Below, piece by piece: positions 37,533 to 40,498 of a stretch of 64,000 nucleotides of DNA. The notes beneath the pieces were generated by a model. That model did no database searches and was not told the origin of the DNA. It saw nothing but the letters and a program-made list of their open reading frames with translations. The stretch comes from Mycobacteroides saopaulense (GTDB taxonomy: Bacteria; Actinomycetota; Actinomycetes; Mycobacteriales; Mycobacteriaceae). Positions within the stretch are counted from its first letter, which is position 1; every line of letters starts with the position of its first letter. Location of the stretch: assembly GCF_001456355.1 (NCBI RefSeq), contig NZ_CP010271.1, positions 3,410,001-3,474,000 of the forward strand, in the 5' to 3' direction. The translations under genes were made by a program, and so were the position numbers.

Positions 37533-37712
37533 GGTCACTCCCGGCATCGTTGATCGGACTTGTTGGTCGGTCAAAATTTCAGGTACCCCGTGGGTCACAC
37601 GGATGCCCTATTCAGTATCACGTCGCCTCCGAGCCTAGGCGGGCGGACGGCGTGTGATCGCGCTCCCATATGCGCTTGGACTACCTGGTGGCAACCATTC
37701 GGTGAATTGCGA

Positions 37713-37718
37713 TACGCT
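37713..37718 (+). promoter_or_regulatory. Candidate -10 box of the metC-metX operon
   Basis: TACGCT lies eight bases before the first base of the SAM-IV aptamer (37726), so the transcript would begin almost exactly with the riboswitch. Confidence 0.5.
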
Positions 37719-37725
37719 GCTAAGC

Positions 37726-37875
37726 GGTCATGAGTACCAGCGTCAAGCCCCGGCTCGCTGGTCGGCAACCCTCCAACCGCGGTGGGGTGCCCCGGGTGAT
37801 TGACCAGGTTGAGTAGCCGACTGAATCGTCGACAGGTTGTCGACGGAGCAATCGGCCACACGGCAAGCGCGGGTC
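37726..37875 (+). ncRNA. SAM-IV riboswitch
   Basis: The sequence from GGTCATGAGTACCAGCG to CGGCAAGCGCGGGTC follows the mycobacterial SAM-IV aptamer almost base for base, including AAGCCCCGG, CGGCAACCCTCCAACCG, GGTGGGGTGCCCCGGGTGA and GACCAGGTTGAGTAGCCG. SAM-IV binds S-adenosylmethionine and shares its ligand pocket with SAM-I. It stands before a sulfhydrylase gene, as in other mycobacteria. Binding of SAM should lower metC-metX expression. The variable stem at about 37820-37858 is longer than in the form I know. Confidence 0.93.
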
Positions 37876-37881
37876 CGATGG

Positions 37882-37908
37882 CGGGCCCCGAGAAGACAGG
37901 TTGGCCCG
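37882..37908 (+). promoter_or_regulatory. Hairpin between SAM-IV aptamer and leader ORF (candidate expression platform)
   Basis: CGGGCC (37882-37887) pairs with GGCCCG (37903-37908), the last six bases before the leader ATG. The loop holds AGAAGACAGG, the only purine-rich ribosome-site candidate. Formation of the stem would hide the ribosome site of the cysteine-rich leader ORF. Confidence 0.55.
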
Positions 37909-37989
37909 ATGAAGTATTCGTCACCCGGGGGTAAGTCCCTGCGTTCCTGTTGTCGGCACTGTCACTGTCGCTGTTGTCCCCAGCCCTGA
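37909..37989 (+). CDS. 26-residue cysteine-rich leader peptide upstream of metC
   Basis: ATG 37909 opens a 26-codon ORF ending at TGA 37987-37989, 32 bases before metC. The second half is SLRSCCRHCHCRCCPQP: Cys at 14, 15, 18, 20, 22 and 23, all encoded TGT. Six Cys in ten codons is far above chance. Poly-cysteine short ORFs are known in mycobacteria as cysteine-responsive attenuators of downstream sulfur genes. Here the ORF is not leaderless but lies within the mRNA, between the SAM-IV aptamer and the sulfhydrylase. Cysteine sensing by ribosome stalling is an inference. Confidence 0.65.
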   Translation: MKYSSPGGKSLRSCCRHCHCRCCPQP

Positions 37990-38021
37990 CTGCCGTACCC
38001 GACTACCCCCAGGAGAGCCCC

Positions 38022-39347
38022 ATGACCGATATCGACCCCACACAGTGGACCTTCGAGACCAAGCAGATCCACGCGGGCCAGTCCGCCGATGCCTCGACCA
38101 ATGCCCGAGCCTTGCCGATCTACCAGACCACCTCCTACGTCTTCGACGACACGGCGCATGCCGCGGCGCTCTTCGGACTGTCCGAAGAGGGCAACATCTA
38201 CACCCGCATCGGTAACCCCACTCAGGACGTTGTGGAGCAGCGCATCGCCGCCCTGGAGGGTGGTGTGGCCGCGCTGCTGCTGGCCTCCGGACAGGCGGCG
38301 GCGACGCTGGCCATCGTGAACATCGCGGAGGCCGGCGACAACATCGTGTCGAGCCCGCGCCTGTATGGCGGCACGTACAACCTGCTGCACTACACACTGC
38401 CGCGCCTGGGTATTTCGACCACCTTCGTCGAAGATCCCGATGATCTCGAGTCCTGGCGCCGAGCCATCACTCCGCAGACCAAGGCGATCTTCGCCGAGTC
38501 GATCTCCAACCCCCAGAACGACATTCTCGACATCGCGGGCATCTCGGAGATCGCACACGCGGCAGGCATCCCGCTCATCGTCGACAACACCGTCGCCACG
38601 CCCTATTTGATCCAGCCGCTGGCTCACGGTGCCGACATCGTGGTGCACTCGGCCACCAAATACCTTGGCGGGCATGGCAATGCAATCGGCGGCGTGATCA
38701 TCGACGGCGGCACCTTCGACTGGACACAGGGTCGGCATCCGGGCTTCACCACACCCGACCCGAGCTACCACGGGGTGGTCTTCGCCGACCTGGGCGCACC
38801 GGCCTATGCACTCAAGGCCCGCGTTCAGCTGTTGCGCGACCTCGGCCCTGCCATCTCACCGTTCAACGCATTCCTCATCGCGCAGGGTCTGGAGACGCTG
38901 AGCCTGCGCGTGCAACGCCACGTAGAGAACGCACAGCGCGTGGCCGAATACCTCGTGGCCCAGCCGGAGGTCACCCGCGTCAACTACGCCGGTCTGCCCA
39001 CCTCGCCCTGGTACGAGCGCGCGAAGGCACTGGCACCCAAGGGCGCCGGGGCCGTCCTGGCCTTCGAATTGGACGGAGGAGCCGAGGCGGCGACGACCTT
39101 CATCGATGCACTGACCCTGCACAGCCATGTCGCCAACATCGGCGACGTGCGCTCGCTCGTCATCCACCCCGCGACCACGACGCACGCACAGCTCGCCCCC
39201 GCCGAGCAGGTGGCCTCGGGCGTCACCCCCGGGCTGGTCCGGCTGGCCGTCGGCATCGAGGGCATCGACGACATCCTGGCCGATCTCGACGCCGGATTTG
39301 CCGCCGTACGTCGCCTCAAACAGCCCGCGGCGGTGGCATCATCGTGA
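38022..39347 (+). CDS. metC: O-acetylhomoserine sulfhydrylase (PLP-dependent)
   Basis: A 441-residue Cys/Met-metabolism PLP enzyme that makes homocysteine from O-acetylhomoserine and sulfide; called metC by synteny (Rv3340), MetY by activity. [17 protein letters not shown] and the PLP-Lys region [13 protein letters not shown] (Lys in ATKYLGGHG) are diagnostic, and [15 protein letters not shown] is the phosphate/ring-binding block. The start ATG 38022 is preceded by AGGAGAG. A longer in-frame reading upstream would read through the leader ORF in another frame. Its stop overlaps the GTG of metX. Confidence 0.94.
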
Positions 39348-40498
39348 CCATCGAACAGCAGCTTCCGGCTCCGAACGTCGCCCTCCCCCAGGGCGACGAG
39401 ATCGCCTATGTACCAATAGGTTCGATCACGCTGGAAAGCGGTGCTGTCATCGACGACGCGATCGTCGCGGTACAGAGCTGGGGGGAGCTCTCGCCGCGTC
39501 GCGACAATGTGGTGTTCGTCTGCCACGCACTGACTGCCGACTCCCACGTGGTCGGCGAAGCGGGCCCCGACCACATCACCGGCGGCTGGTGGGAAGGAAT
39601 CATCGGTCCGGGCGCGGCGATCGACACCGACCAGTGGTGCGCCATCGCCACCAACGTCCTGGGCGGCTGCCGGGGCACAACCGGTCCCACTTCCCTTGCC
39701 TGCGACGGAAAGCCCTGGGGTTCACGATTCCCCGAGGTCTCGGTGCGCGACCAGGTGAACGCCGACGTCGCCGCGCTCGCGCAACTGGGCATCACCGAGG
39801 TCGCCGCCGTACTGGGCGGGTCGATGGGTGGCGCACGCGCTCTGGAATGGGCTGTGATGCACCCGGATTCGGTGAACGCGGCACTGGTGCTGGCGGTTGG
39901 CGCGCGCGCCACCGGCGACCAGATCGGCACCCAGAGCACGCAGATCGCCGCCATTCAGGCCGATCCCGACTGGCAGGGTGGCGACTACCACGGCAGCGGA
40001 CGCAGCCCCGAAAAGGGACTGAACCTCGCCCGACGCATCGCGCACCTGACCTACCGCGGCGAGGTCGAGCTGGACACCCGGTTCGGCAACGACCCCCAGG
40101 TCGGCCCGGAAGGCCCCGAGGATCCGTGGGCGGATGGCCGATACGCGGTGCAGAGCTACCTGGAACATCAGGGCAGCAAGTTCATTCGGCGCTTCGACGC
40201 CGGCAGCTACGTCATCTTGACCGAGTCACTCAACCGGCACGACGTCGGTCGCGGCCGCGGCGGCGTCGAGAAGGCGCTGCGCGGCTGCCCGGTCCCGGTT
40301 GTCGTCGGCGGCATCACCTCCGACCGGCTGTACCCGCTGCGACTGCAAGAGGAATTAGCAGACCTGCTTCCCGGTTGTACCGGCTTGCGGGTGGTCGAGT
40401 CCGTGCACGGTCATGACGCGTTCCTCATCGAATTCGATGCGGTCAGCGAGTTGGTGCGGGAAACGCTGGCACTGGCCAAGGCAACACAGGCTTCGTAA
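39344..40498 (+). CDS. metX: Homoserine O-acetyltransferase
   Basis: A 384-residue alpha/beta-hydrolase-fold enzyme making O-acetylhomoserine, substrate of the preceding gene product. [15 protein letters not shown] is the nucleophile elbow and [14 protein letters not shown] the catalytic His region; [13 protein letters not shown] lies near the N-terminus. GTG 39344 overlaps the metC stop. It is named metA in M. tuberculosis (Rv3341). Both genes share the SAM-IV/leader control. Confidence 0.94.

Follow-up and report, generated by a model that had tools for sequence, protein, structure and literature searches.

In a poly-Cys attenuator, a stalled ribosome frees the ribosome site of the next gene, and the leaderless attenuators of this kind in mycobacteria were reportedly the subject of work by Canestrari in 2020. 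A ligand-sensing RNA and an amino-acid-sensitive leader peptide occur together in the Salmonella mgtA leader with MgtL, a system that differs from the one considered here in its unrelated RNA, in its signals (Mg2+ and proline) and in its enterobacterial hosts. In the available passages on the mycobacterial poly-Cys attenuators, a sulfur gene is preceded by a short open reading frame (ORF) that contains a run of Cys (Shell 2015, PMC4633059; Seliverstov 2005, PMC1262725), and in those of the latter study no conserved RNA structures are reported for the methionine-pathway operon. According to the accessible text of a further report, a SAM-IV riboswitch lies ahead of an O-acetylhomoserine sulfhydrylase gene in M. 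avium (PMC3774663). The M. tuberculosis ppe2 B12 riboswitch (PMC11260477) and pe20 Mbox (PMC12810186) are similar in logic, as the riboswitch acts first on an upstream ORF (uORF); the available passages of both papers give no description of these uORFs as sensors of amino acids.

Here we analyze a 64,000-nucleotide stretch of Mycobacteroides saopaulense DNA (the window), in which a first reading of the letters (the original prediction) had placed a SAM-IV riboswitch and a Cys-rich leader ORF in tandem before metC and metX. The locus is like the SAM-IV riboswitch family (RF00634) in its full-length match and in having the gene type found downstream in M. avium, and differs from it in the place of the expression platform, which in the window and in most of 40 other long leaders defined below covers a leader ORF instead of the enzyme start. 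It is like the leaderless poly-Cys attenuators in its short Cys-run ORF before a sulfur gene, and differs from them in that the ORF is leadered as judged by a promoter motif, stands behind a riboswitch, matches no NCBIfam leader family and precedes a methionine-pathway operon. In the titles, abstract openings and passages of the literature searched (including PMC9094748, PMC13236596, PMC8632094, PMC7790235, PMC8079986, PMC9232105, PMC3890552 and PMC2965389), we found no description of SAM-IV paired with a Cys leader ORF; an earlier mention is possible. We propose a two-step relay, from the SAM riboswitch to the Cys-rich leader ORF and from there to the sulfhydrylase, and give this reading a probability of about 0.6.

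Anatomy of the leader

RF00634 was the sole Rfam family to match above a gathering score anywhere in the window. The match, on the forward strand, scored 99.7 bits (gathering score 38) and ran from model position 1 to 116; the near-canonical aptamer of the original prediction at 37726-37875 is thereby borne out by a covariance-model match over its whole length, and SAM would be the ligand of this predicted aptamer. The ORF that follows translates as MKYSSPGGKSLRSCCRHCHCRCCPQP, with six Cys at codons 14, 15, 18, 20, 22 and 23, every one of them TGT. Its 26 codons and its Cys codons were predicted correctly to the base, as were the 32 bases between its stop and the start of the next gene at 38022 and all other coordinates, so that the original observation is confirmed.

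None of the NCBIfam Cys-rich leader families NF042933, NF042934 and NF042936 matched the window ORF at E values up to 1. A scan of 37560-38120 found none of the intrinsic terminators that a classical transcription attenuator would have between the leader ORF and the gene; the single terminator-like match in that range (37926-37941) lies inside the ORF and has a poor T tail, and shuffled sequences gave 0.3 ± 0.5 such matches. The same bases can form a short hairpin just 5' of the Cys codons, which also appears when the ten near leaders described below are folded to a consensus. Downstream, two genes stand in the position and order first given for metC and metX. The name metC did not survive, because the match of this gene to NF005872 (829.3 bits) exceeds the cut-off of 703 and makes it a sulfhydrylase of the MetY type. 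By the name of this model, the enzyme converts sulfide to homocysteine and cysteine; it shares 98% identity with its counterpart in M. chelonae, the nearest named relative among the best 80 of at least 522 enzyme loci.

Table 1. Features of the leader and the genes that follow it (window coordinates), with related sites outside the genus in the last line
Feature	Position	Strand	Remarks
-10 box TACGCT (TANNNT)	37713..37718	+	starts 13 bases ahead of the first base of the aptamer; sequence reading
SAM-IV riboswitch aptamer	37726..37875	+	RF00634, 99.7 bits, full length
Possible ON-helix 5' arm GGGUCCG (aptamer 3' tail)	37871..37877	+	helix in 64/65 leaders, both classes
CGGGCCC, possible ON-helix 3' arm; first six bases alternatively OFF-hairpin 5' arm	37882..37888	+
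Candidate leader-ORF ribosome site ACAGG	37896..37900	+	within OFF-hairpin loop; resemblance only
GGCCCG, possible OFF-hairpin 3' arm, adjoins ATG	37903..37908	+	hairpin of the original prediction
Cys-rich leader ORF, 26 codons	37909..37989	+	Cys codons within 37948-37977; sequence reading; kept in 10/10 genomes read as Mycobacteroides
UUCCUG (codons 12-14), possible mask of enzyme ribosome site	37944..37949	+	ten-leader consensus fold
Sulfhydrylase ribosome site AGGAG	38011..38015	+	sequence reading
"metC", bifunctional O-acetylhomoserine/O-acetylserine sulfhydrylase (MetY type)	38022..39347	+	NF005872, 829.3 bits, cut-off 703; PF01053
metX, homoserine O-acetyltransferase	39344..40498	+	NF047917, 594.6 bits, cut-off 475; start overlaps the preceding stop
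RRHxDLxRVxSALC-type sites	L120, L186, L208, L212, L219, L220, L223, L225, L230, L234, L235, L239

The tandem in relatives

Relatives were collected by a protein search of genome contigs, from which the best 80 of at least 522 enzyme loci were taken, a sample biased to near relatives. Rfam placed a SAM-IV aptamer upstream of the enzyme in 64 of these 80 loci, which together with the window gives 65 leaders. Spacing between the end of the aptamer and the start of the enzyme was bimodal: 24 leaders measured +39 to +48 (the short class), 41 measured +108 to +186 (the long class), and the gap between was empty. The leader ORF of the long class starts at +34 to +42 in 31/41, i.e., about where the enzyme itself starts in the short class (24/65). 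To place these ORFs, a mechanical rule took the first ATG 3' of the aptamer (GTG in one leader). By this rule at least one Cys was present in 39/41 ORFs of the long class and at least two in 34/41, corresponding to 33 and 28 of the 35 distinct peptides. The rule misplaced the start in two leaders (L047 and L072); with both corrected by eye, the counts become 40/41 and 36/41. The 35 distinct ORFs, with the starts of the rule kept here and in the shuffles, contain 94 Cys among 699 residues, compared to 29.1 ± 5.7 (maximum 47) in 500 dinucleotide shuffles.

The leader peptides are unlike one another (MCCCRR, MRASLHPLTRCCCR, MRSPHMCHCR and MCTYPAPSDRLMCRLVFRC are examples), and 29/41 of the long class have Cys among the last four residues. 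Cys-poor ORFs exist, with no Cys in M. gordonae (L040) and one in several others. Among the 16 loci without SAM-IV, judged by eye, there was no clear Cys ORF just 5' of the gene; incidental frames with at least two Cys occur in four of them. A further sample, made up of 24 members of the genus, which includes the window's own genome and overlaps the first sample, comprised 11 long and 13 short leaders when L001 is counted as short (+44, same frame) and not at the +65 of the nearest-start rule; at least one Cys was found in 11/11 of these long leaders and at least two in nine. Closer to the window, we searched the DNA of 396 genomes of the genus, themselves a subset of a larger group. Of these, 257 gave a match; ten matches, with the window's own genome among them, were strong, at E values no worse than 2.9e-39, and the next best stood at 6.2e-11. 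These ten were read as Mycobacteroides by similarity, and all retain the Cys ORF, with five to seven Cys each. The Cys codons are thus kept among relatives, in 10/10 genomes read as Mycobacteroides and in most long leaders elsewhere. The original prediction had named loss of the Cys codons under a kept aptamer as evidence against itself; in part this was encountered, as 24/65 leaders are without a leader ORF, yet in those the enzyme start stands at about the position of the ORF start. These comparisons give good support to a conserved relay from the SAM-IV riboswitch to the leader ORF.

The predicted expression platform covers the next start site

In 64/65 leaders (not in L041), a helix of 6-8 pairs is possible between the 3' tail of the aptamer and a segment shortly downstream, i.e., GGGUCCG with CGGGCCC or CGGACCC. 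The same segment has an alternative pairing partner further on, in most cases at the next start site, and the start that is covered is that of the enzyme in the short class and that of the leader ORF in the long class. For the window, the original prediction had drawn a hairpin up to the ATG at 37909, and the pairing of CGGGCC (37882-37887) with GGCCCG (37903-37908) would form it; its view that the platform 3' of the aptamer covers the leader-ORF start is borne out by this possible pairing. We infer that the first pairing is the ON state and the second the OFF state. Over 55 distinct leaders, pair 4 of the ON helix is U-G in 32, U-A in 21 and C-G in one, pair 7 is G-C in 52 and A-U in one, and pair 8 is U-A in 10, C-G in six, U-G in two and A-U in one; two-sided changes in the helix are few. 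The ON-helix score was reached by 53/55 leaders compared to 21% of composition shuffles. The OFF pairing often comprises no more than 4-5 bases, and in L071, L072, L105 and L108 it is found at a distance from the start; the fold of 37862-37930 in the window is no more stable than its shuffles (z 0.01). Mainly because the same platform covers the ORF start in long leaders and the enzyme start in short ones, the riboswitch most likely acts on initiation of the leader ORF. The anatomy, the conservation and the shared platform of these predicted elements emerge from comparison of the leaders.

In the proposed relay, transcription would begin at the SAM-IV aptamer, and the direct target of the riboswitch would be the Cys-rich ORF. 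At low SAM, the tail GGGUCCG would pair with CGGGCCC and leave the ribosome site of the leader ORF open. We take SAM binding to occupy the aptamer tail through a pseudoknot with the P3 loop; CGGGCC would then pair with GGCCCG beside the ATG, and the leader ORF would go unstarted. With translation of the ORF under way, ribosomes short of Cys-tRNA would stall on the Cys codons, such that the RNA of the ORF could not mask the ribosome site of the sulfhydrylase. With ample cysteine, ribosomes would run off and the mask would re-form, with some expression by coupling.

The proposed cysteine step

The cysteine half of the relay is likely because the codon content of the ORF is Cys-rich. Stalling at these codons would favor the sulfhydrylase, a direction that we infer from known attenuators and from the reaction of the enzyme. 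In the consensus fold of the ten Mycobacteroides leaders, CAGGAG of the enzyme pairs with UUCCUG of the ORF, and the enzyme start codon pairs with codons 4-5; the UUCCUG-CAGGAG pairing occurs in 6/10 single folds and is absent from the minimum-energy fold of the window itself. A Cys stall was modeled by folding in 40/45 distinct leaders, five being omitted for having no Cys or a ribosome site that overlaps the ORF. Across the 40 leaders, the stall did not significantly free the enzyme ribosome site beyond shuffles (p = 0.09) and masking of the site did not exceed that seen in shuffles (p = 0.28); we therefore dropped the notion that Cys stalling frees this site as a general rule. For the window alone, 0.50 (relief) and 0.60 (masking) of the shuffles did as well. 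Stall and stop positions differed (p = 0.003); for the stall, this comparison used whichever of several Cys positions scored best, a choice in its favor. Folding is thus suggestive for the Cys step in the Mycobacteroides relatives and weak in the window. The interpretation given in the original prediction, in which SAM and cysteine would combine in AND/OR logic, is supported in part.

If SAM gates the ORF and the sulfhydrylase follows by simple coupling, i.e., by termination-reinitiation or by protection from Rho, the Cys codons would be of minor importance. There are precedents in M. tuberculosis: in the available passages, the ppe2 B12 switch works via its uORF with evidence for termination-reinitiation (PMC11260477), and a uORF is under the direct control of the Mbox, where termination is Rho-dependent (PMC12810186). 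The spacing of the genes speaks on both sides, as 5/41 ORFs overlap the enzyme start by four bases, but 36/41 stop 30-93 bases before it, far for tight coupling. Coupling alone also sits badly with a Cys content about threefold over chance across genera in peptides that are otherwise unlike, and we regard it as unlikely, if a serious contender.

A second alternative is that the ORF is untranslated and its TGT repeats are an RNA element. The hairpin inside the ORF (37926-37941) and UUCCUG both figure in the ten-leader consensus fold, as such an element would, and substitutions in the ORF among the ten genomes (10, 17 and 17 by codon position) show no third-position excess. Against this, the ORF lengths in the ten (66, 72, 81, 108 and 120 nt) are all multiples of 3 and the gaps to the enzyme, 29-36 nt, do not vary by threes, so the frame is kept only inside the ORF and not after its stop. 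Cys codons moreover take both forms, 75 TGT and 35 TGC in 38 distinct ORFs, in sequences that do not resemble one another, which makes an RNA element improbable. A preference for TGT as a signal was likewise rejected: the TGT/TGC ratio is 3/11 in five window genes, and nothing is drawn from it because sulfhydrylase genes of relatives show 11 TGT to 1 TGC.

The leader ORF looks leadered

The motif TANNNT starts 12-14 bases ahead of the aptamer in 64/64 loci, compared to 8/1550 control windows with TANNNT at 9-16 bases. No TANNNT starts 9-16 bases before the leader-ORF start in any of the 41 long leaders (0/41). Because the motif precedes the aptamer and not the ORF start, the leader ORF looks leadered, unlike the known leaderless poly-Cys attenuators, in which the transcript begins at the start codon of the ORF. 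The likeness to these attenuators that the original prediction invoked therefore holds for the short ORF with its Cys run ahead of a sulfur gene and, as judged by the promoter motif, would not extend to leaderlessness. We consider it highly improbable that the window ORF has a promoter of its own and works as a leaderless poly-Cys attenuator independent of the aptamer, which would then serve only some transcripts: the same genome does have matches to Ms4527A (54.8 bits) and Ms5788A (55.7 bits), both above the cut-off of 45, but the window ORF matches neither leader family and the promoter motif is at the aptamer. The Ms5788A leader of this genome has a TAAACT box just 5' of its GTG.

Other SAM-IV loci and the history of the leader

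In a quick tree built from 81 enzyme sequences, in which 25/78 inner branches are weak and no root was inferred, the distribution of long and short leaders needs at least 10 changes. The SAM-IV leaders under the names Mycobacteroides, Rhodococcus, Aldersonia, Antrihabitans and Mycolicibacter are all long. On the simplest reading of these sequences, the long leader would be old and would have been lost several times. The window's genome has a second SAM-IV aptamer (L111, C1:430479-430623), directly 5' of a SufS-like class V aminotransferase and without a leader ORF. Second, weaker SAM-IV matches (53-81 bits) stand before unfamiliar genes in other genus genomes (L112 and L114-L117), perhaps in mobile DNA, and L113 and L120 are two divergent SAM-IV matches that lie no more than a few hundred bases apart.

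SAM-IV was found in 130/200 genomes of the order; one genome from another family (G477) has eleven matches. Among 85 SAM-IV sites read outside the genus, 17 precede an enzyme-like frame, as judged by an N-terminal motif only, eight with a nearby Cys ORF and nine without. Four of the eight were found by rule (L168, L187, L191 and L207) and four by eye (L159, L167, L206 and L211), L167 having one Cys. At 12/63 sites outside the genus, SAM-IV is followed by an ORF whose start codon (ATG or GTG) stands at +27 to +45 and whose peptide closes with the motif RRHxDLxRVxSALC or one similar to it (Table 1). Five of these peptides were scanned: three scored above the cut-off of NF042934 (putative leader peptide), and the other two fell below the cut-offs of NF042934 and NF042936, the latter being their best match. 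Seven sites, i.e., six of the twelve and L213, were followed downstream, where transporter-like genes were seen by eye. Four proteins from three such sites were scanned, of which two are ABC permeases above the TIGR01726 cut-off whose best match is a cystine permease model, below its own cut-off; the others are a family 3 binding protein (PF00497) and a protein just under the SsuA family cut-off (160 vs 163.5). We see about even odds that these loci represent an old, general module of the Mycobacteriales, in which a SAM riboswitch targets a Cys-tRNA sensor to form a serial two-metabolite gate before sulfhydrylase and amino-acid or sulfonate transporter genes, and which would have collapsed repeatedly to direct control by loss of the sensor ORF.

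Discussion

In M. saopaulense and many of its relatives, one mRNA leader probably reads the supply of both sulfur amino acids ahead of a sulfur-assimilation enzyme. If true, the relay would offer a clear example of an amino-acid attenuator that is licensed by a metabolite riboswitch, and a single RNA would join the supply of methionine with that of cysteine. Natural matched controls for this arrangement exist among near relatives, some of which have the leader ORF behind the shared aptamer and some of which lack it. The comparison suggests that some SAM-IV riboswitches assigned to enzymes or transporters may act first on unannotated Cys leader peptides.
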